From: Ulva prolifera
Lineage: Eukaryota > Chlorophyta > Ulvophyceae > Ulvales > Ulvaceae
Assembly (NCBI GenBank): GCA_023078555.1
Contig: CM041196.1
Coordinates: 4,464,001-4,528,000, forward strand
Direction of reading: 5' to 3'
Length of the DNA: 64,000 nucleotides
A program made the translations under genes and the position numbers. Below are positions 1,418 to 60,345 of the stretch, in pieces. Within the stretch, counting starts at the first letter, position 1, and each line of letters opens with the position of its first letter. Under the pieces are notes generated by a model. It saw nothing but the letters and a program-made list of their open reading frames with translations, was not told the origin of the DNA and did not search any database.

Positions 1418-6916
<5,499 letters not shown>

Positions 6917-27212: not shown

Positions 27213-27360
27213 TATGTATGTATGTAGTTACAAAGGACATGTATGTATGTATGTATGTAGTTACAAAGGACAGAGGCCGGGCAGCGAGCCGTGTATGTAG
27301 TTACAAAGGACAGAGGCCGGGCAGCGAGCCGTGTATGTATGTAGTTACAAAGGACAGAGG
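27213..27360 (-). repeat. array of retrotransposon 3' ends and (CATA)n tails
   Basis: Reading minus, four copies of the RLE element terminus CCTTTGTAACTACATAC follow one another. Two of them carry only about 30 nt of upstream element sequence (GGCTCGCTGCCCGGCC) and one only about 7 nt. Each copy ends in a CATA run, and the next begins inside that run. This is what repeated, extremely 5'-truncated insertions into the previous tail would leave. Confidence 0.75.
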
Positions 27361-30300
27361 CCGGGCAGCGAGCCGTTGCTAGGAATACACACGCAAATCC
27401 ACTCACGCAATCATGGCACTAGGCCGGGCACGAGCACGTACCACAGCTCGGCCGGTGATGCCAGCCAAAGATTGAAGCCCCGCACGGAGCACAAGAGCAT
27501 TCCCCTTGCACAATGCCACACTCAACCGGCGCAGAGCATTCGTCACAAACAAAGCACGGTTCACCTTACCACACCGAGACGCAACCTCCGCCAGCCGATT
27601 CAAGTGATTCATGGCAGGCCGCCCCAAGCGACCATGCGTCTCATGCGACAACGGCACGAAACCATACGCATCAGGGTCGTACAAACGATAAGCAGTGCGT
27701 TTCTGCACGTCCCGCGTCTCCGCAGCACCCCCGTCCTCGCGGGCCGCACGGCCGCAATAGGAACCAGCACAGGGGTTCACAACCGACACATCTCCTATGC
27801 ACAAAGGGTCGCCCGGCGGCATAAACATGATGTCCCCCAGTTTCTCCTGGGCCACTGCCCTGAACACCTCATCCAGCGCCGTTGCCTGCGCGGCAGCGGC
27901 CTGCTCCCCAGGCCCCGCTGGATCCTGACCACCCGGCGCCGCCGCCGCCGCCAGGGCCGCAGCCTGCGCTGCGTCTGGCGCGTGGCGCCCCATCTGGGCG
28001 CTGTGTCCAGCATCGGCGCCGGCGGCCGGAGCAGGCGTAGGTGCCGGCGCCTCGTCCGCGCGCGCGGTCGGCGGCGGCGGCGGGGCTGCAGGCATCGGCG
28101 CCGCGGGCAAGGCTGCCCCACGCGAAGGGCCCGCGACCTGGGAGGCGGGCTGGGGCGGAGCAGGGGGGGGCGGGCCCAACGGGCCAGCATGGATCTGCCT
28201 CGATGCGGCCGCGAGCCGCGCGCGGACGAACGGCGCTGTGCGCGGGATGCGCGTGGATGCCACACACGCGTGGGACCCGATCTCGCGCCATTGTTTTTCA
28301 ACGATATTGTGGCGCGAAGTCCAGGTCCCCGCATTGTGTGTGCAATTCATCGCGTGATCGAGATCATGCGGCTGTATGAGAGTGCCACATTCGCAGCGCG
28401 AGCCGACCGCATTGGGAGGGGCTGGGGACATGCCCAGGAGATACCTGATGCACAACATGAACTCAATGTCAGTCATGCGCAGCGCCTGGGAGAGCGGCAG
28501 GGTGCTCAACCAAAGGGTGGCTGCACGGCAAGCACAGCTGCGAAGCCGTGCCAAGTTGCATGCACCCTCGAGCGTGGCGACGTCATGGCTGGCAAGCAGA
28601 GCTGCCCGGCGGCGCAGGGCAACCAACTTTGTGATACGCTGCTGCATACCAGGTAACACCTTGGCGATGGTGTCGCCGCTCGCCGGCCCGGGCAGCTCCG
28701 GATGGAGCTGCTGAGCGACGTTGAGGGCCTGCCAGGTTTCCTGCAATTGTTGCCCGTGCGGCCCCCGGTACGGCTGCATGCACTCGGGGCCTCCTGCGAA
28801 CGCCTTTTGGCTCACCGCCGCCGCAGCGAGGTACGCTCCGTCCGCGACCTCCTGCGGCGTGGACGTGACGCCCAGGCCTCCGAGGCGCGCTGGAAGGACG
28901 GCTTGTGCGGCCGCACGAGTGTCGTCCCGCGGGACGCGCATGATTTCATTCACCGCAGCCAGGACGGACGCCTCCGTCCGGCGCATGTGATCGGAAATGT
29001 GCGCCCACGGCACCGCCCTGGCGTAGTGCAGCATACGGCGTTGGCAGGACATCGTGAGCAGCAAGAACTGGTCTTGCGCTTTCAGGGGCAAGCGCATCAT
29101 CTTTTCGATGGTGGCGCACACCTTGTCGGCCGTCGCTTCCGCGTGCGCCGACTCGAACGCCGGGGTGCCGATGGGCGTGCCGGTGATGACGGTGCCCTCC
29201 GTGGCATGCGTTATGCCGAGCGCGGCCGCGACGGATCCCGCATGCTGGGGGTCGCGCGAGTAGGCCGTGCACTTGTGCAGCTGGGGCTCCAGCCCGAGGG
29301 GCTCTGCTGCCGAGACCAGCGCACGGAATGCGGCGGCGGCGTCCACGCGCTGCCCGGCGATGGTGCAGTCGTCATGATACGCCATGAGGGCGGCCGTGAC
29401 CTCCCTCCCGGGTGGCTGGTGCTGGGCCTGCACTGCCTGGAGGGGGCCCTGGAGGGCCAGGGCGAAGAGCAGCGGGCTGATGGGGTCGCCTTGACGCACG
29501 CCGCGCTGCGACGTGATTGCAGCGGTGCCGGGCGGTGCGCCTTCGATGTAGAGATTTGCGGGGAACCTGTAAAGCATGGTGGCGAAGGGCAGCAGCGCAG
29601 GCTTGTGAGACGCAACGGCCTCCAAGATGGCTGCACGGGACATCATGTTGAATGCATTCTTCCAGTCCAGCTGCACAAGCACGACATCGTCCCACGCTTG
29701 CAGCACGGCGCGCGCAGCATGGCCCAGGTTCTGCGCGCCCCCTGGCACCCCGACCCCCACCTGCAGCGGCGCGAGGGAGGCACCCAGGCCACTGCACAGG
29801 GTCATGGCGCACAGGCTTACCAGGCGCTGCCACGTCTCTGCAATGGCGATAGGGCGGACGCCTCCCTGTGGCTTCTCCTGCGGGAGGAGGCGGCAGTCCA
29901 GCAAGCGCGGGAGGTGTGGCAGCCGGCCGGCGAGGGCCGCGTTCACGAAGCGGTGAATCTCCGTGAATGCGGCCGTGGAGGCCGTGCCAGCAGCCCGGAT
30001 GTGCTCATACGTCCACCCCGACAGGCCTGGGCCGCTGCCCTTCGGCAGCTTGTCGAGCAGTGCGCGGAGCGTCGCCTCGTCGATTTGCAGCGGGGGCGCG
30101 GGCTCGGCGGGCTGGGTGTCGGGGGGGAGCGCTTCTGCGGGATGCAGGTGCCGCAGCGCCTCATGCACTTCCGGGGTGTACCTGGCGATGGGCGGCGCCT
30201 CCACTTTCTCCGCGCCTTTGCGGACATTACCGTCGCTCAGTGACCTGTGGACGGAGCCCGCCAGGCGGCGATCCTGGTTCTGATTCATTCTGCGCTTCTG

Positions 30301-31487
30301 GCTCGGAGTGGGCTCCGCCAGCCTGGGCTCCTCGCCGTCCATGAACAGCGTGATGCATGTACGAGCGCGGCGCGCCGTGCCGTCCCCTCCCTTCAGCGAC
30401 AGAACCTTACCAGGGAAGTCGAGGACGCGGCCCAGGGCCAGTCGTGCTCCGTCGATGTTTGACGCGTCGCTGGCATCGTTGAAATCTCTGAGGAGCTCGG
30501 CCGTTGCGTCGCCGAACTCCGGATGGACGGTGTCCGGGACCTTCGGGGAGGGCCTGGGCTGGGCGGTGTTGTGGGCGGCGGCGGGGGCTTCGGTGAAGTG
30601 ACGGGGTGGCTGATGGGGGTGCGGCTGGGCAGGCTGGGCAGGCTGCGGCTGGGCGGGCTGCGGCTGGGCGGGCTGGGCTGGGGCGGGTTGGGCTGGGGCG
30701 GGCTGTCGGGCCGGATGTGTGGCGGGCAGCACGCAGTGACCTGACCTCAAGCTCCTGTTCTGACCTCCCACACATTTATGCGCCTTAGGGGTCTTGGTGG
30801 AGCCGAATATGCCACAGTGAGAGCAGTACGCGGCATTGAGTTCGTGCAGCTTCGCAGTAGGCAGCCTCGGCCCGTCGCGATGGATTCCTCGGATGTGGGT
30901 GAACAGACTTGAATGGGAGGAGAGACTAGCGCTGCATCCGTCATATGGACACTGAAAGCTCATACGCAGGGACTCGTTCCGCTGAAAGCGGACACACTAA
31001 CGGTGCAGTCTAACGGGCCATTGAACCGGCCAGACGGCACAAAACTAAAACAACAAACACACAACACTTTTAACGAATCAAATCTGCAGATCACCTGCGG
31101 CTAGTCCGCAGGATTGCCAGTGGGACTGCCGGACAACGGCACGCGGGCAGCCAGCGGCCCGCGCCGACATGACGGCTGCAAAGCCAAGCGGGTCACCAGG
31201 AAGGCCAGGCGAAACATAGAACAGACATCTAGGTGTTCCAAATGGGCAAGGCTGCAGGCCACTGGCGGTCAGTCCGCTGGCATTCTAGTGGGGCTGCAGA
31301 ACGACGGAACACTGGCAGCTGGCGCGCGTATTCGTTGCAGCTGCACGACAGCGGACGACAGAACACAACTAAGGGCCTATTCGTTTTCTTTTTGCTGCCT
31401 CCCGCAGCCGGGTTCTTTTGGCATGCGTCTACATCGGGACCACGACACAGCACAGACGACAGACGTACGACAAAGATACAAAGAGAT
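27346..31487 (-). mobile_element. full-length RLE-type non-LTR retrotransposon, copy 1
   Basis: The 5' end is near 31487, directly abutting a (CATA)n tail of the preceding element. It has a 5' untranslated region of about 520 bp containing two diverged direct repeats (near 31110 and 31273), one long ORF (30963-27403), and a 3' untranslated region of about 59 nt ending TTTGTAAC plus a CATA tail. It differs from copy 2 at only a handful of positions, so transposition is recent. Confidence 0.85.
27403..30963 (-). CDS. non-LTR retrotransposon polyprotein: zinc fingers, reverse transcriptase, RLE endonuclease
   Basis: The ORF is intact with 1186 residues. A C2H2 finger (Cys5, Cys10, His23, His28) and a Cys/His cluster (Cys47, Cys50, His62, Cys64) sit at the N-terminus, followed by a Pro/Gln/Ala repeat region. 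Reverse transcriptase spans roughly 310-600, with QLDWKNAF, SQRGVRQGDPISPLLFAL and the catalytic box AYHDD (Asp531-Asp532). Near the C-terminus are a CCHC motif (CECG...H...C), SRHN, and GDPLCIGDVSVVNP, the layout of the restriction-like endonuclease of R2-type elements. A Pro/Ala-rich insert of over 100 residues separates RHN from the PD-like motif, which is unusual. Encoded functions would be target cleavage and target-primed reverse transcription. Codon use is much more GC-rich than the flanks. Confidence 0.93.
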   Translation of the reverse strand: MSFQCPYDGCSASLSSHSSLFTHIRGIHRDGPRLPTAKLHELNAAYCSHCGIFGSTKTPKAHKCVGGQNRSLRSGHCVLPATHPARQPAPAQPAPAQPAQPQPAQPQPAQPAQPHPHQPPRHFTEAPAAAHNTAQPRPSPKVPDTVHPEFGDATAELLRDFNDASDASNIDGARLALGRVLDFPGKVLSLKGGDGTARRARTCITLFMDGEEPRLAEPTPSQKRRMNQNQDRRLAGSVHRSLSDGNVRKGAEKVEAPPIARYTPEVHEALRHLHPAEALPPDTQPAEPAPPLQIDEATLRALLDKLPKGSGPGLSGWTYEHIRAAGTASTAAFTEIHRFVNAALAGRLPHLPRLLDCRLLPQEKPQGGVRPIAIAETWQRLVSLCAMTLCSGLGASLAPLQVGVGVPGGAQNLGHAARAVLQAWDDVVLVQLDWKNAFNMMSRAAILEAVASHKPALLPFATMLYRFPANLYIEGAPPGTAAITSQRGVRQGDPISPLLFALALQGPLQAVQAQHQPPGREVTAALMAYHDDCTIAGQRVDAAAAFRALVSAAEPLGLEPQLHKCTAYSRDPQHAGSVAAALGITHATEGTVITGTPIGTPAFESAHAEATADKVCATIEKMMRLPLKAQDQFLLLTMSCQRRMLHYARAVPWAHISDHMRRTEASVLAAVNEIMRVPRDDTRAAAQAVLPARLGGLGVTSTPQEVADGAYLAAAAVSQKAFAGGPECMQPYRGPHGQQLQETWQALNVAQQLHPELPGPASGDTIAKVLPGMQQRITKLVALRRRAALLASHDVATLEGACNLARLRSCACRAATLWLSTLPLSQALRMTDIEFMLCIRYLLGMSPAPPNAVGSRCECGTLIQPHDLDHAMNCTHNAGTWTSRHNIVEKQWREIGSHACVASTRIPRTAPFVRARLAAASRQIHAGPLGPPPPAPPQPASQVAGPSRGAALPAAPMPAAPPPPPTARADEAPAPTPAPAAGADAGHSAQMGRHAPDAAQAAALAAAAAPGGQDPAGPGEQAAAAQATALDEVFRAVAQEKLGDIMFMPPGDPLCIGDVSVVNPCAGSYCGRAAREDGGAAETRDVQKRTAYRLYDPDAYGFVPLSHETHGRLGRPAMNHLNRLAEVASRCGKVNRALFVTNALRRLSVALCKGNALVLRAGLQSLAGITGRAVVRARARPSAMIA

Positions 31488-31658
31488 ATGTATGTATGTA
31501 GTTACAAAGGTAGAAGATGTATGTATGTATGTAGTCACAAAGGACAGAGGCCGGGCAGCGAGCCGTTGCCAGGAATACACACGCAAATGTATGTATGTAG
31601 TTACAAAGGACAGAGGCCGGGCAGCGAGCCGTTGCCAGGAATACACACGCAAATCCAC
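31488..31658 (-). repeat. two micro-fragments of RLE 3' ends plus copy 2 tail
   Basis: Reading minus from the copy 2 stop codon: its 3' end and CATA tail, then a fragment of about 70 nt with the same end and tail, then a fragment of about 12 nt with another tail, then the 5' end of copy 1. Each begins inside the previous CATA run. Confidence 0.75.
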
Positions 31659-34600
31659 TCACGCAGTCATGGCACTAGGCCGGGCACGAGCACGTACCAC
31701 AGCTCGGCCGGTGATGCCAGCCAAAGATTGAAGCCCCGCACGGAGCACAAGAGCATTCCCCTTGCACAACGCCACACTCAACCGGCGCAGAGCATTCGTC
31801 ACAAACAAAGCACGGTTCACCTTACCACACCGAGACGCAACCTCCGCCAGCCGATTCAAGTGATTCATGGCAGGCCGCCCCAAGCGACCATGCGTCTCAT
31901 GCGACAACGGCACGAAACTATACGCATCAGGGTCGTACAAACGATAAGCAGTGCGTTTCTGCACGTCCCGCGTCTCCGCAGCACCCCCGTCCTCGCGGGC
32001 CGCACGGCCGCAATAGGAACCAGCACAGGGGTTCACAACCGACACATCTCCTATGCACAAAGGGTCGCCCGGCGGCATAAACATGATGTCCCCCAGTTTC
32101 TCCTGGGCCACTGCCCTGAACACCTCATCCAGCGCCGTTGCCTGCGCGGCAGCGGCCTGCTCCCCAGGCCCCGCTGGATCCTGACCACCCGGCGCCGCCG
32201 CCGCCGCCAGGGCCGCAGCCTGCGCTGCGTCTGGCGCGTGGCGCCCCATGTGGGCGCTGTGTCCAGCATCGGCGTCGGCGGCCGGAGCAGGCGTAGGTGC
32301 CGGCGCCTCGTCCGCGCGCGCGGTCGGCGGCGGCGGCGGGGCTGCAGGCATCGGCGCCGCGGGCAAGGCTGCCCCACGCGAAGGGCCCGCGACCTGGGAG
32401 GCGGGCTGGGGCGGAGCAGGGGGGGGCGGGCCCAACGGGCCAGCATGGATCTGCCTCGATGCGGCCGCGAGCCGCGCGCGGACGAACGGCGCTGTGCGCG
32501 GGATGCGCGTGGATGCCACACACGCGTGGGACCCGATCTCGCGCCATTGTTTTTCAACGATATTGTGGCGCGAAGTCCAGGTCCCCGCATTGTGTGTGCA
32601 ATTCATCGCGTGATCGAGATCATGCGGCTGTATGAGAGTGCCACATTCGCAGCGCGAGCCGACCGCATTGGGAGGGGCTGGGGACATGCCCAGGAGATAC
32701 CTGATGCACAACATGAACTCAATGTCAGTCATGCGCAGCGCCTGGGAGAGCGGCAGGGTGCTCAACCAAAGGGTGGCTGCACGGCAAGCACAGCTGCGAA
32801 GCCGTGCCAAGTTGCATGCACCCTCGAGCGTGGCGACGTCATGGCTGGCAAGCAGAGCTGCCCGGCGGCGCAGGGCAACCAACTTTGTGATACGCTGCTG
32901 CATACCAGGTAACACCTTGGCGATGGTGTCGCCGCTCGCCGGCCCGGGCAGCTCCGGATGGAGCTGCTGAGCGACGTTGAGGGCCTGCCAGGTTTCCTGC
33001 AATTGTTGCCCGTGCGGCCCCCGGTACGGCTGCATGCACTCGGGGCCTCCTGCGAACGCCTTTTGGCTCACCGCCGCCGCAGCGAGGTACGCTCCGTCCG
33101 CGACCTCCTGCGGCGTGGACGTGACGCCCAGGCCTCCGAGGCGCGCTGGAAGGACGGCTTGTGCGGCCGCACGAGTGTCGTCCCGCGGGACGCGCATGAT
33201 TTCATTCACCGCAGCCAGGACGGACGCCTCCGTCCGGCGCATGTGATCGGAAATGTGCGCCCACGGCACCGCCCTGGCGTAGTGCAGCATACGGCGTTGG
33301 CAGGACATCGTGAGCAGCAAGAACTGGTCTTGCGCTTTCAGGGGCAAGCGCATCATCTTTTCGATGGTGGCGCACACCTTGTCGGCCGTCGCTTCCGCGT
33401 GCGCCGACTCGAACGCCGGGGTGCCGATGGGCGTGCCGGTGATGACGGTGCCCTCCGTGGCATGCGTTATGCCGAGCGCGGCCGCGACGGATCCCGCATG
33501 CTGGGGGTCGCGCGAGTAGGCCGTGCACTTGTGCAGCTGGGGCTCCAGCCCGAGGGGCTCTGCTGCCGAGACCAGCGCACGGAATGCGGCGGCGGCGTCC
33601 ACGCGCTGCCCGGCGATGGTGCAGTCGTCATGATACGCCATGAGGGCGGCCGTGACCTCCCTCCCGGGTGGCTGGTGCTGGGCCTGCACTGCCTGGAGGG
33701 GGCCCTGGAGGGCCAGGGCGAAGAGCAGCGGGCTGATGGGGTCGCCTTGACGCACGCCGCGCTGCGACGTGATTGCAGCGGTGCCGGGCGGTGCGCCTTC
33801 GATGTAGAGATTTGCGGGGAACCTGTAAAGCATGGTGGCGAAGGGCAGCAGCGCAGGCTTGTGAGACGCAACGGCCTCCAAGATGGCTGCACGGGACATC
33901 ATGTTGAATGCATTCTTCCAGTCCAGCTGCACAAGCACGACATCGTCCCACGCTTGCAGCACGGCGCGCGCAGCATGGCCCAGGTTCTGCGCGCCCCCTG
34001 GCACCCCGACCCCCACCTGCAGCGGCGCGAGGGAGGCACCCAGGCCACTGCACAGGGTCATGGCGCACAGGCTTACCAGGCGCTGCCACGTCTCTGCAAT
34101 GGCGATAGGGCGGACGCCTCCCTGTGGCTTCTCCTGCGGGAGGAGGCGGCAGTCCAGCAAGCGCGGGAGGTGTGGCAGCCGGCCGGCGAGGGCCGCGTTC
34201 ACGAAGCGGTGAATCTCCGTGAATGCGGCCGTGGAGGCCGTGCCAGCAGCCCGGATGTGCTCATACGTCCACCCCGACAGGCCTGGGCCGCTGCCCTTCG
34301 GCAGCTTGTCGAGCAGTGCGCGGAGCGTCGCCTCGTCGATTTGCAGCGGGGGCGCGGGCTCGGCGGGCTGGGTGTCGGGGGGGAGCGCTTCTGCGGGATG
34401 CAGGTGCCGCAGCGCCTCATGCACTTCCGGGGTGTACCTGGCGATGGGCGGCGCCTCCACTTTCTCCGCGCCTTTGCGGACATTACCGTCGCTCAGTGAC
34501 CTGTGGACGGAGCCCGCCAGGCGGCGATCCTGGTTCTGATTCATTCTGCGCTTCTGGCTCGGAGTGGGCTCCGCCAGCCTGGGCTCCTCGCCGTCCATGA

Positions 34601-35180
34601 ACAGCGTGATGCATGTACGAGCGCGGCGCGCCGTGCCGTCCCCTCCCTTCAGCGACAGAACCTTACCAGGGAAGTCGAGGACGCGGCCCAGGGCCAGTCG
34701 TGCTCCGTCGATGTTTGACGCGTCGCTGGCATCGTTGAAATCTCTGAGGAGCTCGGCCGTTGCGTCGCCGAACTCCGGATGGACGGTGTCCGGGACCTTC
34801 GGGGAGGGCCTGGGCTGGGCGGTGTTGTGGGCGGCGGCGGGGGCTTCGGTGAAGTGACGGGGTGGCTGATGGGGGTGCGGCTGGGCAGGCTGGGCAGGCT
34901 GCGGCTGGGCGGGCTGCGGCTGGGCGGGCTGGGCTGGGGCGGGCTGGGCTGGGGCGGGTTGGGCTGGGGCGGGCTGTCGGGCCGGATGTGTGGCGGGCAG
35001 CACGCAGTGACCTGACCTCAAGCTCCTGTTCTGACCTCCCACACATTTATGCGCCTTAGGGGTCTTGGTGGAGCCGAATATGCCACAGTGAGAGCAGTAC
35101 GCGGCATTAGAGGTCGTGCAGCTTCGCAGTAGGCAGCCTCGGCCCGTCGCGATGGATTCCTCGGATGTGGGTGAACAGAC
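31659..35180 (-). pseudogene. RLE-type retrotransposon copy 2, 5'-truncated and frameshifted
   Basis: The sequence is nearly identical to copy 1 from its 3' end to codon ~19 of the ORF. The first part, including the start codon and most of the first zinc finger, is missing: the element begins at 35180 against a CATA tail. A one-base insertion near 35108 relative to copy 1 (GGCATTAGAGG against GGCATTGAG) breaks the frame between the two zinc-finger regions. Downstream the frame is open for 1127 codons (35042-31659), with all RT and RLE motifs. One extra 15-bp Pro-Ala-Pro-Ala-Gln unit sits in the N-terminal repeat. The only amino-acid changes I noticed are a few near the C-terminus (for example GFVPL to SFVPL). 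Confidence 0.9.
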
Positions 35181-35183
35181 TTG

Positions 35184-35306
35184 TATGTATGTATGTAGTT
35201 ACAAAGGACAGAGGCCGGGCAGCGAGCCGTTGCTAGGAATTCACACGCAAATCCACTCACGCAGTCATGGGCAAATCCACTCACGCAGTCATGGCACTAG
35301 GCCGGG
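35184..35306 (-). mobile_element. RLE element 3' fragment
   Basis: It contains only the last coding residues, the 3' untranslated region and a CATA tail, with a 27-bp internal tandem duplication of the stop-codon region. Its tail is the apparent landing site of copy 2. Confidence 0.8.
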
Positions 35307-35349
35307 TACTGGAGCCTGGGAGGGGGGCCGGCACTCAGGCCTCATGCAT

Positions 35350-35667
35350 TGTCAGGAAAAGCGCCCACCCGAAGGTGTACTACTTTCCTTTCAGGATCTG
35401 GTCATATATGTACTTGAGTGCTGATGACTCAACATGACACCCCCCCTCACTCAAGGACCGTTGACTAGGATCCGAAAGCTTGGAAGGCGGACGCGTATCC
35501 TGGGTGCAGCTGCCCGGATTTAAACCCGCGTCTATGGAGGTTAAGATCCTCTCTATGACCACTCTCACCGATACCATGTCAGGAAAAGCGCCCACCCGAA
35601 GGTGTACTACTTTCCTTTCAGGATCTGGTCATATATGTACTTGAGTGCTGATGACTCAACATGACAT
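35350..35667. repeat. pair of ~90-bp direct repeats
   Basis: The block starting GTCAGGAAAAGCGCCCACCC at 35350 recurs at 35578 and is essentially identical over about 90 bp. The spacer holds a tRNA-like stretch. It resembles a small composite repeat or a SINE-type insertion with a duplicated flank. Confidence 0.8.
35505..35578 (-). other. tRNA-Lys-like sequence (possible SINE head or tRNA relic)
   Basis: On minus the order is GAGAGTGG (A-box-like), an anticodon arm AGAGG-ATCTTAA-CCTCC with U33 and anticodon CTT, and GGGTTTAAATCC (B-box-like). The T stem pairs poorly and a clear acceptor stem was not found, so a functional tRNA gene is unlikely. It lies between the two 90-bp direct repeats. 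Confidence 0.35.
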
Positions 35668-36604
35668 GCACGTCCAATTGAACCGCGAGCACCTCAGAGC
35701 GCTCCAGAACACAAGGAAAAGTCCTATAGACTCGCAATAACCTTCTGAATCGATTGTAAGTAGTGTGGGCGAAACAGGTGAAAACGCCCAGCGAAACCGG
35801 GATTTTTGGACCAAGAGCCCGTTTTGCCCAGCGACGCCTCAGATGGCCTCAAACGGTGCCCAGCGTATGCCCATCGTGCTCAGTGGGCAGAGAGCACTCG
35901 AAAAACACCATAATATGTTGCCCTGATGTTCAACTGGCTGCCACCTCGACTTGTGTCACCGTGCGGTGTTCGCGTCCGACCAGCGTCATGGCGGGCGTCC
36001 ATACTACCGGGAAACATCCCATCGATTACCATGATTTCGACCAGCTTACCGGAATATTGGCACATATGCAGCTGTCTTGTGTGGTGATCAAAGAGCAGGT
36101 GGGCGACGTGTTCCTTGCTGAGATACTCAAAACATCGCAGCAGCTCCAGTGTTGTGAACTTCATCTTAAGATGGAATTGTTGTGAGACTACCAACACTTT
36201 GATGCCTGCCCATACGGTACTGAGTGAACCTCCGGGTCAGTCAGTGTAGCATGCTACACTGCATAGCAGTGCATCTTTGCACTTTAAGATCGAAGGGACA
36301 GCAGCACCACCGACCAGATATGTTCTTCAAAAGCGATCAGGATACAAATTTGAAATGTACATGCCTATCATCAGCATGGTCTGCAAGCAAACACCATTCT
36401 ACAGAGTGGAAGGCTTGCGTAGGCACGTCATTGTTCGCCTGAATCCACACCATCATGCAGTAGATCCACGCACGGTGTTACCAGAGACAGTCTGCCATGG
36501 TCCTTAACAGTCTGCCATGGTCCTAAACATGCCTGATCTGTTGACGAAGGCGATACACTGATTTCCAGTGGTACAGAGTCACACATGTATGTATGTATGT
36601 ATGT
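35668..36604. other. no supported gene; GCCCAGCG-repeat DNA
   Basis: It contains several GCCCAGCG motifs (35790-35870) that recur at 43240-43330 near the hAT-like element, so the two stretches may be relics of the same repeat. The frames present are not recognisable. Confidence 0.4.
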
Positions 36605-36805
36605 AGTTACAAAGGACAGAGGCCGGGCAGCGAGCCGTTGCCAGGAATACACACGCAAATCCACTCACGCAATCATGGCACTAGGCCGGGCACGAGCACG
36701 TACCACAGCTCGGCCGGTGATGCCAGCCAAAGATTGAAGCCCCGCACGGAGCACAAGAGCATTCCCCTTGCACAATGCCACACTCAACCGGCGCAGAGCA
36801 TTCGT
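36605..36805 (-). mobile_element. RLE element 3' fragment joined to APE element tail
   Basis: It encodes the last 45 residues of the RLE polyprotein (from NALRRLSVALCKGN to the stop), the 3' untranslated region and a CATA tail. Its 5' junction lies directly on the CATA tail of the APE element at 36806-36822, showing one element inserted at the other's tail. Confidence 0.85.
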
Positions 36806-39800
36806 ATGTATGTATGTATGCATGATTACATAGCCGTATCCATTTGGACATTGACAACTCCGAAATCCGGGACCGAAAGAGGCATCCAAGCAACATGCTG
36901 CCGCAAACTCTGACTTGCGCCACAGAATGCAACAACACGAGCCAATTCACCGAGAGGGGACGGGCGATTTGCAACACCCGACACCCCAGCATCACCACCA
37001 ACACCATCAACACCGACAATAAGCACAACCGCTACATCAGACCACGAAACACCAGAGGCACTGTCATAAGGACCTGGCCGTGCGAGCAACTGCCGCACCA
37101 AAACCGCAACGGCGGAGACATGCCGATCACGATGTGCCACTGGGACAGGTGGCAGAACTGCCCCGATGGGTGCACGTGCGATGTAGGATGTGAAGACAAC
37201 AGCAGCACGTGAATATTCCAAATGCTTTTCACTACGGTGCCTACACAAGAAAGGAGACAGACCCGAACGAGCAGACATTAGCACACGCACAAGACCGGGC
37301 TCAACGGAGTCCATAAACGGGGCTAGTGACCCTAGTTCGTGTGTTATCACACCACGCAACCACTCTCCAGTGACCTTATTGTCGCGACCACGCTTCTCAA
37401 ATCGTTGTTCAAGGTATGCCAACCACATGACAGCCACGACCTTCTCACGGGTAAGATTTGAGTACGTGATTGTGAGAGGGCTTTGTTTGGACGGCTGATC
37501 ATGCATGCCGAGACGTTTGGACACCCTGGGTGGCCCACGTCGGCGGCGATGCTCAGGCTCGGGTGGAGCCTGTAAGGCAAGTCTGATGTGTGCATATCGT
37601 TTCAGTTCTGCCGCAATGGCCGTGATGCGGGAATGAAAGTCCCCGCCCACCCCCGGCCCCCGTTGAGAGTGACCCCGAATCGCGGTGGATTCCACCGCAA
37701 CCGGGAATCGCTCCGCCCCCATGTGTGTCAGCTTTGCGTACCAGCAAAGTTTAGCTGCCTTGATCATTGAGCTCACAGGCAGGAGGCCCGTGTCGGAAAA
37801 AAGAATCTCCTCCCTGCAATCGAACTGGTGCAGACCAAACACCATGCGGATTGCCTTTTTACAGATGGTATCAAGTTTGTCGAGTTCAGTTTTTGGGCCA
37901 ATCCATACCTCAGCCCCATACAAAGCAGGAGTATATATGAACGCATAAACAAGGCGGAGCCGGGCGGTCACCGGGAGGTAGTGGCAACGCAGCACTGGCC
38001 GCCACGCGCCAAGTGCCTTGTTCATCTTTGCGCGTACATGATGCATATGTTCAGACCAAGAGCCATTTGACTGGAAGAAAACACCCAAGTATTTGTAGGT
38101 GTGAACAGTCTCCAACTGCGACCCCCGCAGCTGGAAGACAACTGGTGCGCCGCCCTGCGGCTGATTGAACACCATAGTTTTAGACTTCAACACATTTGGT
38201 AAGGAGCGCCATTGAAACAACCATTTATCGATTGTATCAATATGTCCCTGAAGCCCTGCCGGTGTCAAGGACATTGCATTGACATCATCTGCATAAGTGA
38301 GTCCGGAAATTTTATCGGTGTCTGGTGAGTCAAGGGGAATGCAGAGTTCTTTTGGACGGGTGTGCAGTGTTGCAAGCAGATCATCAATGAACACATCAAA
38401 GAGAATGGTTGACAGGGGGTCGCCTTGGCCGACCCCGAGGGTGATGGGGAAGTATGGTGATTCCTGGTCTTGGAAGCGCACCCTCGATTTCGTGTTTGAG
38501 AGCATGTGTGCGATGACCCGACCGAGGCGGCCTGTCACTCCTTTCTGGAGTAGTTTGTACAACAGACCGTCGCGCCACACAGTATCATATGCTTTCCGGA
38601 TGTCCAGGAAGAAAGCATAAAGTGGAGTGTCCGCCGCGGCGGCCGCCCGGACAATGCGTGCAAAGGTGTGGACATGGTCTACACAGCCGCGATCCTCGCG
38701 GAATGCGGCTTGGGACTCATGGAGGGTTATATTGTTTTGGAGGCGGGACCTGAGTAGTGTGCTGAAAAGCTTCCGGAATATTGAAAGCAGTGTGATACCC
38801 CGGTAGTTGGAGGGGTCTGTTGCATCCCCGGCTTTGTGGAGGCTTACAATTGTTCCGAGTGACCACGCATTGGGAATGGTTTCGTGCGTCCAGCAGAAAT
38901 TGAGGAGCTGCAGGACGACGGTTTGCAATTGCGGCCCCCCGGCCTTCAGTAGTTCGCAGATGATATCATCGTGGTCTGCGGCTTTCCAGTTGTGCATTGT
39001 AGCAAGTGCTTGTTGAAGTTCGTGAAGTGTGAAGGCATCATCCATCTCTTGGTTGTGTTGAGGCTCATTGTGGCGCCATGCGTGCAATGTGTCTCTGACA
39101 TGTGCATCAGTTTGCTCGCAGAATGTGGCATGTGGGACCGGGTTCATTTCAGATTGGTAGTGATTCGAGAAAACCTGCATCACTGTGTCTATATTATCAG
39201 TGGGGACTCCCCCAGACATAACAGAAGGCACGGGGTGCTCGGCCGTCGAGCCACCCCTGGTTAGCAGTTTCAACAAACGTTTCGCAGACACCCATGAAAC
39301 TTTAGACTCAAGTCCTGGCGTGCACGTTTTAGAGACATGGTTGGCTTGCTGTTTGGTGTATGCACGTTTAAGATCGCGTTTCAGCTGGTTCTTTGCACCT
39401 CGGCGTTGCTGGAATGCTAGCTTGTCAGTGTCGCTGCCGGTCCGGCAGTGTGTCTCATGAAGGGTCCAGCATTCGCGTCTGAGGTCTGCATATTCTTTGT
39501 TCCACCATTGCACGCGATGGGTCCGTACCTGGTGTTTCCCAAAGCATTGCTCTCCTGCGGTACGTAGGATGTTTGCCAGGGCAGATGTGAAAGTGTTGGC
39601 AGCTTCAGCATGCGGCATGCTACATGAGTCCATGTCGTGCAGCAACTGCGCAAGGGGCGCTTGCAGGGCTGTCTCAAATTTTGCGACTGTCTCCTCGTTG
39701 TGCATTGCTTTCCTATTCCACCGTTTTTTGTGTGATCGGGCGCATTTGCGCTTGCTTCTGTGTGTGGCATGTGGCAGTGACAGTGATAGTGTGAGCAGCG

Positions 39801-41535
39801 CGTGATCAGAGAGACACTGCCCAGCAGAGTGGATTGCAGGTGCACTGCAACGGTCCCTACATGCAGAGCTCGTCAGACAGTAGTCAACAACAGAGGTGCC
39901 GCCGGCATGCATGCATGTCGGCGAAAAGGCAGTGTGGTTGTGCATGACATGCATATTGCATTGTTCTACCATGTTTATTAGGCGACAGCCCTGTGAGTTA
40001 CGGAACGTTTCATTATGTAGTGGAATATGATGTGAGTTTTGTGCATTCCCAATCCTGGCGTTGAAGTCCCCGCACACAATGATGTGGAATCCCTTGTCAG
40101 TCAAGTAGTGTATGTCGTGTGTGAGAGCTTCCAGCTCAGCAGCAAACCTGTCGCTGTCTGCAGGACGGGCGTGTGCCACCGGCCGAATGTATACACTTCC
40201 GATTGCAGTCTTGGTTGTGTGTCTGCCGGCGCACAATTGTACCCAGGTCGTCTGATGATTTTTCTTGGAACCCCAGGATAGTGTGTGTGTAAGGTGTGAC
40301 AGTGTGTCTTTCACAATGATGCCTGTGCCGCCGCCGGTCCTTGTTTGAGTTGTGTATCCCGGAGCACCATATGCAGTATACCCGTGCGCGGCAAGCATAG
40401 AAGTTTTCTCTGTGTCCGACAAGTCGCACCAGGTTTCTTGGACTGAACAAATGTCCACATGTTTTGATGACAGAAATGCACAAACATCCACATGTTTAGA
40501 TGACAAGGATTGTGTAAACATACCATTCACATTTAAGCTTCCAAGCGTGACACATGTTGGTGCTTTAGATATACCCGCCTGGTTGTCATGTGCAGAGGCG
40601 AGAGGTGCAAAGCGGTTGGCCGCGGTTGCAGGTTCGGTGGTGGTAGGGTGGGGGCGAGCGCGGAGTGGTTTGTTCCGGCCATCGCCTTGTGGATACATCA
40701 TGTATGTGAGTTCTATTTTGGTAGAGGGAGCCGTGCGGCAGCCCCGAGGAAGCAGTGCCTCTGAGCATGCTTGGGCAAAAGGAACCACGCCCTGTGCGAT
40801 AATTTTCGCGATGTCGAGTCTTCTGTAGACGGACAACAGGAGGAATGGCTGCCCAGTTGTTTTATTTCTGTGTCGTGTACGGTGGGCGGCCTGAAGCATT
40901 GAGAGGGTGGCGCTGTGTGAGGTCACGGAGAGGAATGCGCCCGTGTGGCAGACAACGTCACAAGGGCCAAAGAAAGAGAACACTACGCGATTCGGTGGCA
41001 CAACTTGCATCACCTCCTCATGCTCATTGTGCTGCTGATGCCTTATGCCGGTTTGTTGCATCACAGGCGCGTTCACTGTCTCAGTCATAGAGAGTCGTGT
41101 TGGAGGGGAGAGGACCAGGCTGTTGCGGTACGGATCGAAAACGAGCATGCGCACATGGACAACTACGCACGTGGCTGTGCGACATTGCACCAGCCACCAC
41201 ATACTAGTCAAGCAGACACCAGAATGGGGGAGGGGGAGGACACCGCCCGCCCCCCAACATAACCACACCATCAAAACAGACCGCGCAGGAGACTGCAACA
41301 CGTAGCACAGAGAACACTTGACAGCACTTCCACGTACGGATGCCCAACAAGGGCTCCCCAGCCCAGTGTACCTACGCGGAATACAGAGCAGAGACGCCAC
41401 ACACCGGACTGTAGGAGCCGGAACCCAGACCAGACACCACACTCCACGACGCGCACCGGACTGTAGGAGCCGGAACCCAGACCAGACACCACACTCCACA
41501 ACACAGCTACTGCCTCGCACCAACAAGCCCGGCAT
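36806..41535 (-). mobile_element. APE-type non-LTR retrotransposon, copy 1
   Basis: It extends from the CATA tail (36806-36822) to at least the ORF start at 41088. The upstream part includes a tandem duplication (41404-41502) and could be its 5' untranslated region; the exact 5' end is unknown. The stop codon is part of ATGTAATCAT immediately before the tail, so the element has almost no 3' untranslated region. Confidence 0.85.
36826..41088 (-). CDS. APE-type LINE polyprotein: endonuclease and reverse transcriptase
   Basis: ATG at 41088 gives 1420 residues; the frame is open 149 codons further upstream, but that part is Cys/Trp/Val-rich like translated untranslated DNA. An apurinic-type endonuclease covers roughly residues 180-425: LGSLNVNG, ICSVQETW, IVCGDFNARIG, SVVDYCLTS and CLSDHALLTL. 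Reverse transcriptase covers roughly 690-960: IVSLHKAGDATDPSNYRGI, FLDIRKAYDTVWRDGL, LGVGQGDPLSTILFDVFID and the catalytic GLTYADDVN. A long C-terminal region follows with no clear zinc knuckle, and it ends QMDTAM. A short near-repeat (SSKHVDVCAF, then SSKHVDICSV) lies in the endonuclease. The ORF has no internal stop or frameshift, so it could be active; it is almost identical to the copy at the window's right end. Confidence 0.93.
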   Translation of the reverse strand: MTETVNAPVMQQTGIRHQQHNEHEEVMQVVPPNRVVFSFFGPCDVVCHTGAFLSVTSHSATLSMLQAAHRTRHRNKTTGQPFLLLSVYRRLDIAKIIAQGVVPFAQACSEALLPRGCRTAPSTKIELTYMMYPQGDGRNKPLRARPHPTTTEPATAANRFAPLASAHDNQAGISKAPTCVTLGSLNVNGMFTQSLSSKHVDVCAFLSSKHVDICSVQETWCDLSDTEKTSMLAAHGYTAYGAPGYTTQTRTGGGTGIIVKDTLSHLTHTLSWGSKKNHQTTWVQLCAGRHTTKTAIGSVYIRPVAHARPADSDRFAAELEALTHDIHYLTDKGFHIIVCGDFNARIGNAQNSHHIPLHNETFRNSQGCRLINMVEQCNMHVMHNHTAFSPTCMHAGGTSVVDYCLTSSACRDRCSAPAIHSAGQCLSDHALLTLSLSLPHATHRSKRKCARSHKKRWNRKAMHNEETVAKFETALQAPLAQLLHDMDSCSMPHAEAANTFTSALANILRTAGEQCFGKHQVRTHRVQWWNKEYADLRRECWTLHETHCRTGSDTDKLAFQQRRGAKNQLKRDLKRAYTKQQANHVSKTCTPGLESKVSWVSAKRLLKLLTRGGSTAEHPVPSVMSGGVPTDNIDTVMQVFSNHYQSEMNPVPHATFCEQTDAHVRDTLHAWRHNEPQHNQEMDDAFTLHELQQALATMHNWKAADHDDIICELLKAGGPQLQTVVLQLLNFCWTHETIPNAWSLGTIVSLHKAGDATDPSNYRGITLLSIFRKLFSTLLRSRLQNNITLHESQAAFREDRGCVDHVHTFARIVRAAAAADTPLYAFFLDIRKAYDTVWRDGLLYKLLQKGVTGRLGRVIAHMLSNTKSRVRFQDQESPYFPITLGVGQGDPLSTILFDVFIDDLLATLHTRPKELCIPLDSPDTDKISGLTYADDVNAMSLTPAGLQGHIDTIDKWLFQWRSLPNVLKSKTMVFNQPQGGAPVVFQLRGSQLETVHTYKYLGVFFQSNGSWSEHMHHVRAKMNKALGAWRPVLRCHYLPVTARLRLVYAFIYTPALYGAEVWIGPKTELDKLDTICKKAIRMVFGLHQFDCREEILFSDTGLLPVSSMIKAAKLCWYAKLTHMGAERFPVAVESTAIRGHSQRGPGVGGDFHSRITAIAAELKRYAHIRLALQAPPEPEHRRRRGPPRVSKRLGMHDQPSKQSPLTITYSNLTREKVVAVMWLAYLEQRFEKRGRDNKVTGEWLRGVITHELGSLAPFMDSVEPGLVRVLMSARSGLSPFLCRHRSEKHLEYSRAAVVFTSYIARAPIGAVLPPVPVAHRDRHVSAVAVLVRQLLARPGPYDSASGVSWSDVAVVLIVGVDGVGGDAGVSGVANRPSPLGELARVVAFCGASQSLRQHVAWMPLSVPDFGVVNVQMDTAM

Positions 41536-43362
41536 AAGGCCGGGCGCGCGCTACTCGCGCACCGGACCCGGAGATGGAGAAGTCGCCCGGAAGGGCGTTT
41601 TGAATCATGCACTGTGCTTTTGTTGTGAACACTCTGGGCCGGGCAGCTGGCATCGGGACACAGCGGCCGCACGAGTCAGACCCCAAGAGCATTGTGGTGT
41701 GCGTGCAAAAAGCAGGACAGGTCATTAACGTGGTACGCCGTCTTCGGGGGTGGCGGGCTTCCGCCAGCTACGCCCTCAGGCTGTCTACTCGGGAGGGCAG
41801 CGAACGAGGCTACTCTTATGAGGCCCTCTCCACCCTTAATTCGGAGAGCGCGACATAGCACACAGAACCCCCACCGAACCACCCACTTGACCGTGAGCTG
41901 CCAGGGACACCCACGTGGGACAAGCGCTTGGCTCGTACAGCCCGTTTGACCGTGGGAGTTTGCCAGGCACACTCACGTGGGACAAGCATTGGGCGTGCGT
42001 CAGGGCATCCGCCGGGATCCCCCCCAGACTTTGCACGTTTCGCGGTCTGCTCGCCACACACACACAGACTGTGATGACTACAAGTGTATGCACGGGCTCG
42101 GGCCTGCGGGCCCAACAACATGCGCTACAGTCTTGCATCAGGCGTAGCCGCACAGCAAGAACGCTGACGGCACGGGCTCGCGGAGCCTGAACATCGCGGA
42201 GCCCGTAAACAAAAGGAAAAGGCACACAATAACTGTCTTTGAGCGGCAACATGCCGCGCAGTTCGGCGTCTTGGCATTGCTAGCACAGCCCGAAACTAAA
42301 CATCGCGGCGCGAGAAGACACACACTCACGCAGCTACCGTGTGCTCGTGCAACTGCCCGCCAGAATCGGGAATCAGATGTTATAAGCGAGATGGTATGCA
42401 TTCTGTGGGTGTGAAACGGGCAAAGCATGTAGAAACAAGCAGTGCGCAATAGTTCGGCAACCACGCAGCACAGCTACGGCGTCGGCAATGGGTGTTGCCG
42501 GACCAAGCTGGCCAGGAACGCACAACATAACACAATAAAACATCTAACGTGGGATCTGTGAGTTCTGGCACCTGGGATGACTTCTGGTTGCGATAGTTGC
42601 CGAGAGTGCCTCGTCTGGACTCGAGCGCAGCCTCATCGTCGCATCGTCACTGCCCGCGGGCGAACGCCGAAAGACACAAAAACAGAAACTAAGACTCAAC
42701 AAGAAAACCTATCGCGTGATCAAGTTCGTGTCCGTGTCGCGGTAGCCGGTCCGCTCCCCTGCCGAGAGCGTTTAGCACATCATAGCCATGGTAATCATAG
42801 ATGTGTGTATGCAACCACATGTATGCAACCAGGTCGTCACACATACGCTGGATGGAAGGACAAGTATCACACATGCTATCAGGACATGGCAATCAGATGT
42901 GCTGCAGAACCTGTGCTTGGCTCTGTTGTGATCAACTGTTGACAACGCCCAGCGCTATGGAGTACACATTGCAGCAGCCAAGCTTAAGCTGCCCCCCAGC
43001 CAGATCGGGCAAGCAACAGTCTCGCCAGACCCGGAAAGCCATCTCAAATATCTCCGGTTTTTATTATGTGCGTGACAGCTCCTAACGGCGCGGTCGATGG
43101 TGTCCAAGGGAAGCAAACATGGCAGAGCATGTACTAGTACCGCCCGCAGCAAAACAATAGACCATTTACAACGCATCAGGATGCATTACAGGCATATAAG
43201 GGTGTTCTAAGGCCATTGGGCATGCTTCCGGTCCCGCTGGGCGCGTTCTCGCGCTCGCTGGGCACAATGGGGCTTTTTGCCCAGCCATGCACACGGATTT
43301 CGGGCCAAAGGTCCATTTCGCCCAGCGAATTTAAACAAAGATACAGCAGCATTCAGAAGGTT
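41089..43362. other. APE element upstream region and intergenic DNA
   Basis: A tandem duplication with a 55-bp period starts at 41404 (unit GGACTGTAGGAGCCGG...). A second, diverged tandem pair with a period of about 59 bp is at 41885-41995 (TTGACCGTG... ACGTGGGACAAGC). Inverted GGGCTCG/CGAGCCC-type motifs occur at 42090-42200. No gene was recognised; the left portion may be the LINE's 5' untranslated region. Confidence 0.45.
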
Positions 43363-43370
43363 ATTGTGAG

Positions 43371-44525
43371 TAAGGTCCGCCAAAAACGTATAATTCCAAG
43401 TCTCCTACGTTGCCTACGTCGTATGAAATCAAAATGTTTAATAATATCGTATATTGCACCGTATGGCGTATATGCTGCCGTATAAGCGTATATTGCACCG
43501 TATGCCCGTATAATGTGCCGTACATGACCTCGATGACTGATACGTTTGACATATACGGCTGCTTGATTGCATGCTGAGAGTACGTGCTAGGCCCCATGAT
43601 GGTGTGGGAGTGTTCTAACTATCTATGCACCGTGTTTGATGCACTGGAATTTGCACAGTATGATGTGCAGATAGATAAAAAAGAGTCCAGTGTCCAACAC
43701 ACTGGCACATACACTGGCTCAGCTCTCGGGAGCAAGGGTTGCGATATGATGCGGGCCTGGAGGACGCGATCCTGCCGGACTGAGTTGTGAGTGCGGTTGT
43801 AGTGTGAGTGTGTGTGTGAGTGTATGTTGCAGTTGATTCGGATGAGATTCGGTTTCAGTGTTTGTTTTCTCCCGTTCACTCTTTTGTAAACTGCACTGGC
43901 TCAGCTGCACATGATTACACAAGCTCTCACAGTTCATCAATCGTGTCAAGCAGTACAGCTAAGTCCCCCATACTGCCAGGCTTTCCACGTGCCAGCCTGT
44001 CATTCTGCTTGATGTAAATGAGGTCACACGCACGTGCTAGTCCCAGGTTTGTGTGCTAGTCCCAGGTTTGTGCGTGCCTTCACATACAACTGACCCCATT
44101 CAGTCCAGTTACGCTCCGAAGCACAGGCTGTCACAGGCATAGACATCACAGTTGCTGCGACCTTTGCAAGCACTGGTTACTCCTTGGAGAGATGATTTAC
44201 CCAAAACCGCCTGCGCTTGGCTGAGTTCGGAACACGCCCATCTGCATCAAGCTTGGTCAGATTCACAACAGTCTTCTCATATGCTCGTAGTGGACCCGTA
44301 CTTGACCGTATATGACCAACGTATATGGCGTATATGACCAACGTATATGGCGTATATGACCACCGTATATGGCGTATATGGGTCACCGTATATAGCGTAT
44401 ATGGGTCACCGTATGACCGTATGAAACGCACCGTAGGACCGTATGAGGAACGAAAATAAATACTACGATGACCGCCTTTAATACGTATACGGCATTTCAT
44501 ACGAATACGTTTTTGGCGGACCTTA
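43371..44525. mobile_element. non-autonomous hAT-like DNA transposon, 1155 bp
   Basis: Terminal inverted repeats are perfect over 21 bp (43371-43391 and 44505-44525), beginning TAAGGTCCGCCAAAA. The 8-bp target duplication ATTGTGAG is present exactly at 43363-43370 and 44526-44533. Subterminal CGTATA-type repeats crowd both ends (43480-43530 and 44285-44440), as expected for transposase-binding sites. Eight-bp duplications with short terminal repeats are the hAT superfamily hallmark. The interior has no transposase-like frame. Confidence 0.88.
44285..44440. repeat. CGTATATGG/CGTATATGACC minisatellite in hAT-like element
   Basis: About eight copies of a 14-24-bp unit built on CGTATATG lie near the right end of the transposon; sparser copies lie near the left end. 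Confidence 0.8.
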
Positions 44526-44762
44526 ATTGTGAGTCTATAGAAGTTCCCAGCGATGTCTCGAGCGTTCTGAGCTGCTCGCGGTTCAATTGGACGTGCATGA
44601 GGCCTGAGTGCCGACCCCCCTAGCCTGGGCGATTGTATGGCAGAGCACGAAAGCAGACATGCAGTAGTGGCGGCAGCAACCACGACACCATGTGGCCAGC
44701 CTGTGTCAGCTTTGCATCATGCATTTCACACCAGCATGATAAAAGCACACGCCAACATGATT

Positions 44763-45228
44763 GACCCTTTGTGCATAGGAGATGTGTCGGTTGTGAACCC
44801 CTGTGCTGGTTCCTATTGCGGCCGTGCGGCCCGCGAGGACGGGGGTGCTGCGGAGACGCGGGACGTGCAGAAACGCACTGCTTATCGTTTGTACGACCCT
44901 GATGCGTATAGTTTCGTGCCGTTGTCGCATGAGACGCATGGTCGCTTGGGGCGGCCTGCCATGAATCACTTGAATCGGCTGGCGGAGGTTGCGTCTCGGT
45001 GTGGTAAGGTGAACCGTGCTTTGTTTGTGACGAATGCTCTGCGCCGGTTGAGTGTGGCGTTGTGCAAGGGGAATGCTCTTGTGCTCCGTGCGGGGCTTCA
45101 ATCTTTGGCTGGCATCACCGGCCGAGCTGTGGTACGTGCTCGTGCCCGGCCTAGTGCCATGACTGCGTGAGTGGATTTGCGTGTGTATTCCTGGCAACGG
45201 CTCGCTGCCCGGACTCTGTCCTTTGTAA
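44763..45228 (+). mobile_element. 5'-truncated RLE retrotransposon insertion with 10-bp target duplication
   Basis: This 466-bp piece contains the last part of the RLE polyprotein (from DPLCIGDVSVVNP to the stop at 45170) and the 3' untranslated region to TTTGTAA. CAACATGATT occurs perfectly on both sides (44753-44762 and 45229-45238). Unlike the other copies it is on plus, is not in a microsatellite and has no CATA tail. The coding frame is open from 44637 into flanking DNA, giving a 177-codon chimeric ORF; nothing shows it is used. Confidence 0.9.
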
Positions 45229-45238
45229 CAACATGATT

Positions 45239-60267: not shown

Positions 60268-60345
60268 ATGTATGTAGTTACAAAGGACAGAGGCCGGGCA
60301 GCGAGCCGTTGCCAGGAATACACACGCAAATCCACTCACATACGT
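60268..60345 (-). mobile_element. RLE element 3' fragment
   Basis: It comprises about 65 nt of the RLE 3' untranslated region, starting GTGAGTGGATTTGCG, plus a CATA tail. It lies between the APE copy 2 tail and the A4 stump. Confidence 0.85.

Follow-up and report, generated by a model that had tools for sequence, protein, structure and literature searches.

Several described systems resemble the one reported here. Zepp, a long interspersed nuclear element (LINE) of the L1 clade whose tail is (A)n (PMC3747384 Table 3), builds arrays by nested insertion targeting existing copies (Craig et al., PMC8226300), and in Coccomyxa it forms one cluster per chromosome (Blanc et al., PMC3446292). In Magnaporthe oryzae, tandem copies of MoTeR1/MoTeR2 always stand head to tail, with a variable tract of the target repeat between them and a defective partner (PMC7367193); MoTeR is an R2-group element for which annealing of the target strand with the RNA end has been proposed (PMC3636483). 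Among LINEs with a restriction-like endonuclease (RLE), some HERO families and Togen, for (TG)n, target microsatellites (PMC4640811). Some green-algal L1 families with (CATA)n tails have been tabulated (PMC3747384 Table 3). A LINE and a short interspersed nuclear element (SINE) may also have a common 3' end, as SINEX of Chlamydomonas has with RandI or L1 (PMC3747384). The DNA analysed here, a stretch of 64,000 nucleotides from Ulva prolifera (contig CM041196.1, positions 4,464,001 to 4,528,000; the window), carries a head-to-tail chain of pieces of a predicted RLE LINE. Its insertion very probably proceeds by target-primed reverse transcription and is aimed at (T)ACATAC, a short motif with a direction that the element's own ends supply in part.

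Nine minus-strand pieces of this one LINE are recognized in the window by their tail, each ending in CTTTGT(A/G)ACTACATA (tails at 36600, 35192, 31594, 31528, 31495, 27338, 27294, 27254, and 27221), where an initial annotation of the sequence had counted at least seven. Two are long copies and the remaining pieces measure 15-206 nt. Eight form the chain, 35309-27221, and one stands apart at 36805-36600. The same annotation held that nearly every 5' junction lies in the CATA run ending the previous piece, which is borne out: for seven of the nine pieces the 5' end falls inside the CATA run closing the preceding RLE piece or no more than about 7 nt from it, and the 36805 piece starts in the run of another LINE, one with an apurinic/apyrimidinic endonuclease (APE) domain. 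The 5' end of copy 1 directly adjoins CATACATACATA of the preceding fragment, and an RLE copy on contig 1 (C1:9393333) shares this 5' end with one mismatch and also stands directly after a CATA run. Copy 2, 99.3% identical to copy 1 by BLAST, has its 5' junction within CATACATACATACAA, the end of the 35309 piece. The loosest junction of the chain is that of the 31509 piece, where CTTCTAC intervenes after the CATA run. Two neighbouring 39-nt pieces with one truncation point may reflect a tandem duplication (Table 1). Only CATA, sequence of the element itself, or a few stray bases are present at the internal junctions of the chain. The chain is genuine, and it is typical of this genome.

Genome-wide, the RLE tail motif has 1290 matches (637 + 653, with up to 2 mismatches) versus 2 for the reversed control. 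The exact tails on contig 1 number 98, and 45 of the 47 neighbouring pairs less than 6 kb apart lie on the same strand, versus a mean of 4.4 and a maximum of 14 in 5000 trials of random placement. At locus L061 (inspected loci are numbered with L), two opposite-strand pieces lie 144 nt apart (C1:5360242- and 5360389+); one other opposite-strand pair closer than 6 kb occurs among the exact contig-1 tails, with 4.9 kb between its members. The regions C1:10.89-11.20 Mb and C9:2.93-2.96 Mb are dense in RLE copies.

The fetched stretches contained 77 tails that were read, and 71 of these have a readable 5' junction. Six tails were dropped, one without alignment and five because the junction lay beyond the stretch, so long copies are under-represented. 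All but one of the junctions (70/71) are on contig 1, the remaining one being L007; the stretches used hold 64 of the 98 exact contig-1 tails, the other 34 lying at 10.78-12.51 Mb, with two of them seen in L089. Places inspected on other contigs were chosen, not random. Within this sample, 61/71 junctions stand at CATA-type sequence under an automatic rule, versus 1104 of 20000 random 40-mers of the same stretches (5.5%); copies are thus not mostly outside CATA repeats, the outcome against which the initial annotation had proposed to check its idea. The 71 junctions divide into 29 at an own-type tail, 15 at an APE-type tail, 17 at other CATAC/ACATA sequence, and 10 at none of these. The motif is directional: CATAC occurs in the last 30 nt upstream of the junction in sense orientation in 52/71 and in antisense orientation in 4/71, against 2.7% at random. 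Truncation at the 5' end is common (56/71 pieces are shorter than 500 nt in a sample in which long copies are under-sampled).

The number of CATA units per readable tail is small, one in 33/70 and two in 24/70, and the following base is C in 59/70. The idea that insertion requires a long (CATA)n microsatellite is rejected, because 57/70 readable tails hold only one or two units. The proposal that the tail microsatellite itself is the preferred target therefore holds in part: tails are preferred, but a short directional CATAC suffices and the tail of another LINE is also used. A telomeric system is ruled out as well, since junctions were read at CATA-type sequence and tails are dispersed along contig 1. 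At L005 (C3:1-91), the CATA tail of an APE LINE copy stops roughly 50 nt from where contig 3 begins; no telomere repeat is present in the first 400 bases of this contig, whose first bases hold the APE tail.

The tail of another LINE family is heavily used as an RLE target. The APE tail has 227 genome-wide matches (up to 3 mismatches) and 0 for the reversed control; the analyses of it use 100 listed places of the 227, 20 of them on contig 1. A same-strand exact RLE tail lies within 4.5 kb downstream of 13/20 listed contig-1 APE tails, versus a mean of 0.23 and a maximum of 4 for random positions (10000 trials), while a same-strand tail lies upstream of 2/20 and an opposite-strand tail near 0/20. 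The relation was also counted from the side of 39 near-full-length RLE copies, which are the best-scoring candidates rather than a random sample (47 rows, with 8 N-terminal parts joined by hand to their copies). In the 5 kb upstream of 18/39 copies a listed APE tail is present in the same orientation; for 1 copy such a tail lies downstream, and for 0 on the opposite strand. Of the 39, 12 stand in head-to-tail pairs 4.0-4.3 kb apart. At L079-L081 and L083-L085, RLE sequence begins a few bases past the APE CATA run; by eye, three 5'-truncated copies at L083-L085 start within about 10 nt of it. The 59 (CATA)3 tracts on contig 1 comprise 17 RLE tails, 16 APE tails, and 26 others, and for 13/26 of the others the 4.5 kb downstream contains an RLE tail on the same strand (a count without its own random baseline).

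Target duplications record how such arrays grow. A duplication of at least 4 nt beyond the CATA units is present in 18/71 pairs, versus a permuted mean of 2.0 and a maximum of 7 (300 permutations); the visible ones start with the CATAC motif and extend 4-16 nt beyond it. In L091, where eight tails follow an APE tail within 2.5 kb, CATACATGCCTCTG is present three times and CATACATGCGTGACTG twice. Two places in L052 show CATACGGCCGA and three show CATACGGC; the last CATACGGC continues into an older piece with a truncated 5' end, so that the order of insertion can be read off. CATACAGCC occurs twice in L080, and CATACACAG four times in L060, two of these in a 69-nt unit present twice that may be a tandem duplication. 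Because single loci show CATAC-led duplications, extending into unique sequence, two to four times each, the arrays there grew by repeated separate insertion. Nested insertion in the window chain is inferred from these loci, since its own internal junctions are of the kinds given above. The claim that each insertion creates the next landing site is upheld by the motif at both ends of copies and by the serial duplications at these four loci.

On its protein sequence, the element is assigned to the R2-like (RLE) LINEs. Copy 1 has one long open reading frame (ORF) of 1186 aa, with a reverse transcriptase (Pfam RVT_1, E 8e-11) whose closest solved relatives are R2Tg/R2 (E 1.1e-05 and 2.6e-05), human L1 ORF2 giving E 0.64. 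An N-terminal zf-C2H2 match (E 0.0014) scores 19.4 bits, under the curated cut-off of 25.2. Among the three proteins scanned, Exo_endo_phos occurs in the APE LINE only, and the RLE ORF is without an APE domain. By eye, its C-terminus shows CECGTLIQPHDLDHAMNC, then RHN, then LGD-13 residues-DVSV and KRTAY, residues that we take to resemble a CCHC and a PD-(D/E)XK nuclease motif. The 39 listed near-full-length copies lie on nine contigs with protein identity of 95-100%, and in 38/39 the matched part is without a stop.

The proposed mechanism connects the RNA end with the target. The end of the RLE RNA, ...CUUUGUAACUACAUA, matches the insertion motif. The nuclease would nick the bottom strand 5' of CATAC, and the GTATG end of the nick could pair with CAUAC of the RNA and prime synthesis. 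The second strand would be cut some 4-16 nt past the motif, and the variable number of CATA units might come from slippage or from the target itself. Sources of the motif are the element's own ends, the (CATA)n with which the APE LINE family ends, and other CATA tracts. Since the duplication starts with the motif, both ends of a new copy carry it and further insertions occur there; since the motif is directional, new copies are added head to tail.

Several observations weigh against this mechanism. No C-terminal nuclease domain of the RLE ORF is matched in Pfam. The automatic junction rule is loose, an APE-type match being accepted with as many as 4 substitutions, and the own-tail call at L039 rests on a distant match. 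Even so, 10/71 junctions lack a CATA motif under it. By eye, L046 represents an internal deletion that follows an APE tail, L065 is a diverged own tail, L061 and the window 35309 piece contain internal duplications, and two are marginal (L048 2404726 and window 45221, ACATG); L050, L066, L075, and L078 are without explanation. The 35309 piece, which starts after ...CCAGGCTCCAGTA, is the exception to the CATA-run rule in the window. No clear duplication beyond the CATA units is seen in 53/71 pairs, and at no internal junction of the window chain is there a clear-cut duplication beyond CATA and element sequence. Also, 7/20 listed contig-1 APE tails look empty, and those in L004, L006, and L008 have no RLE tail in the 1.5 kb downstream, these three having been selected by an unbroken (CATA)5, a choice favouring empty tails.

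The serial duplications bear directly on template jumping, in which the reverse transcriptase would pass from the 5' end of one RNA to the 3' end of the next and make an array in one event. Template jumping has been reported for the R2 reverse transcriptase, it yields the same order and orientation, and the window junctions 31594/31588 and 31495/31486 show CATA only between pieces. Under this model no target duplication should separate the pieces, but DNA foreign to the element is found repeated between them in L091, L052, L080, and L060, and copies in APE tails are left unexplained, which makes the model improbable. That a single insertion was multiplied by tandem duplication, unequal crossing-over, or replication slippage is more doubtful still. 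The two 39-nt pieces with a common truncation point (27332-27254) and the doubled 69-nt unit of L060 would fit it, but the truncation points of neighbouring pieces mostly differ, some pieces have duplications of their own, and the occupancy of APE tails is again left out of account. Because target DNA lies between different pieces, neither one template-jumping event nor simple tandem duplication made these arrays, and both are rejected at the loci with serial duplications, apart from the 69-nt part of L060.

A rather unlikely alternative dispenses with endonuclease specificity: breaks or nicks would be random, and the RNA would choose among them by pairing its ACUACAUA end with any ACATA-like DNA end. 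The use of weakly matching sites, TACATATTGC (L063) and CAACATGATT (window 45221), agrees with such pairing, whereas the motif-led duplications suggest staged cleavage of both strands, and the RLE tails downstream of 13/20 listed APE tails and 13/26 other contig-1 tracts also argue against it. A chromatin or regional preference, by which clustering would arise from open or heterochromatic regions with CATA as a by-product, is hardly credible: some regions are dense in copies, for example C1 near 11.1-11.2 Mb, but downstream of APE tails there are 13 same-strand placements versus 0 on the opposite strand, and such strand-specific placement needs targeting at the level of sequence.

Beyond insertion at (T)ACATAC, the chances are about even that the RLE LINE lives as a hyperparasite on other LINEs, with a 3' end imitating the (CATA)n tail of the APE (L1-like) family and with APE copies as its landing sites. 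If so, one APE copy could seed an open-ended, growing landing pad common to the LINE and a partner of about 930 nt; every insertion rebuilds the site at both ends, so the pad can keep growing. The system serves as a worked example of a transposon generating landing sites for itself and using those of a different family as well. Duplications recording insertion order, together with used and empty tails side by side, make the co-evolution of LINE tail and target directly testable. Zepp clusters may be centromeric, and the present arrays offer a model of the possible origin of nested LINE arrays, including those at algal centromeres.

The partner element, 94% identical to the RLE LINE end over its last 68 nt, is a member of the same arrays (L077, L091). 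For a 27-nt motif from its interior there are 113 matches (up to 3 mismatches), versus 0 for the control; one frame is open for 249 codons, and 5' ends vary among the copies seen. ARAGORN found no tRNA gene in it in L077 or L091; other SINE heads were not searched for. The element probably borrows the machinery of the RLE LINE in trans.

Table 1. Features of the window (positions within the 64,000-nt stretch; reference positions are those of the RLE LINE).
Feature	Position	Strand	Remarks
RLE tail fragment, 19 nt	27221..27239	-	closing CATA run stops the chain at ~27213
RLE fragment, 39 nt	27254..27292	-	truncation point identical to that of the 27294..27332 neighbour
RLE fragment, 39 nt	27294..27332	-	starts inside the CATA tail of copy 1
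RLE LINE copy 1, 4149 nt	27338..31486	-	ORF 27403-30963, 1186 aa; BLAST limits
RLE tail fragment, ~15 nt (CTTTGTAACTACATA)	31495..31509	-	7 nt past the preceding CATA run
RLE fragment, 61 nt	31528..31588	-	reference 4089-4149; starts inside the CATA tail of copy 2
RLE LINE copy 2, 5'-truncated at reference position 572	31594..35187	-	ORF 31659-35042; BLAST
RLE fragment, first piece of the chain	35192..35309	-	reference ~4056-4149 plus a 24-nt internal duplication
Terminal inverted repeat (TIR) transposon, 9.3 kb	35321..44621		inverted ends AGGGGGG(T/C)CGGCACTCAGGCCTCATGCA; 8-bp duplication CCCAGGCT
RLE fragment, 206 nt	36600..36805	-	reference 3944-4149; sits in the CATA tail of the APE LINE
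APE LINE ORF, 1569 aa	36826..41535	-	Exo_endo_phos + RVT_1
Solo RLE copy, 473 nt	44763..45235	+	off-motif site, duplication CAACATGATT
RLE fragment, 69 nt	60271..60339	-	in a second APE LINE copy, within its CATA tail

The 5' flank of the chain is split by a TIR transposon (Table 1), which carries the APE LINE and the 36805 RLE piece. The copies of its CCCAGGCT duplication flank it at 35313-35320 and 44622-44629, and 8 bp is a hAT-like length. The site without the transposon reads ...GCCATACAATCGCCCAGGCTCCAGTA|CCCGGCC, with CATACA about 20 nt upstream of the 35309 piece before the insertion; the original flank thus held CATACA, and the 35309 junction is at least compatible with the CATA rule. 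The chain proper begins at 35309, and the 36805 piece, in a separate nest, follows the CATA-tail rule independently. The initial annotation had the chain follow the APE element in the same orientation; the APE LINE is indeed on the minus strand, but as the head of the chain it is ruled out, lying inside the separate transposon. Its stop codon stands 5 nt ahead of its own CATA run, and a search with its own target duplication (GTGTGACTCTGT) matched the known place only. The tail pattern of the second APE LINE copy lies at 60354-60379 with one mismatch. One arm of the TIR transposon contains, at 35350-35666, a perfect 90-nt direct repeat (35350-35439, 35577-35666) showing TG...CA ends, together with TGGTATC, which resembles a primer-binding site, and a purine run (motifs by eye); the segment looks like a miniature long terminal repeat (LTR) element of the TRIM (terminal-repeat retrotransposon in miniature) type.

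Set against the systems described at the outset, each part of this one has a counterpart. Like the SINE/LINE pairs, the ~930-nt element and the RLE LINE have a common 3' end, here the last 68 nt, although its lack of an ARAGORN tRNA gene in L077/L091, within a search that did not extend to other SINE heads, sets it apart. The window APE LINE is likened by its tail to the green-algal L1 LINEs ending in (CATA)n, while the PMC3747384 passages on these do not mention that tail as the target of another LINE. Microsatellite-specific RLE LINEs share the simple-repeat target, CATA-type at 61/71 junctions, though a single CATAC seems enough here; the PMC4640811 passages on HERO and Togen do not describe own-tail targets or serial arrays. 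MoTeR is alike in its R2 group, its head-to-tail copies, and its partner element, and differs in that its target is the telomere repeat, whereas that of the RLE LINE is a self-supplied motif away from contig ends. The literature searched, which covers the field in part and is weak evidence of absence, contains no description of an RLE LINE targeting both its own tail and that of another LINE. Zepp and ZeppL of Coccomyxa (Chlorella) and Chlamydomonas also insert in nested fashion into existing copies, and their arrays are mostly 3' ends through 5' truncation. Nested tail arrays are already known in green algae from Zepp (PMC8226300, PMC3446292), which qualifies the suggestion that self-perpetuating tail arrays of this kind in an alga would be worth describing. 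The RLE LINE works like Zepp but is not a Zepp member: it is R2-like, has no APE domain, ends in ACTACATAC, is dispersed, and also uses the tail of another family. Its parts are of known kinds, and the self-regenerating, cross-family tail target looks new.

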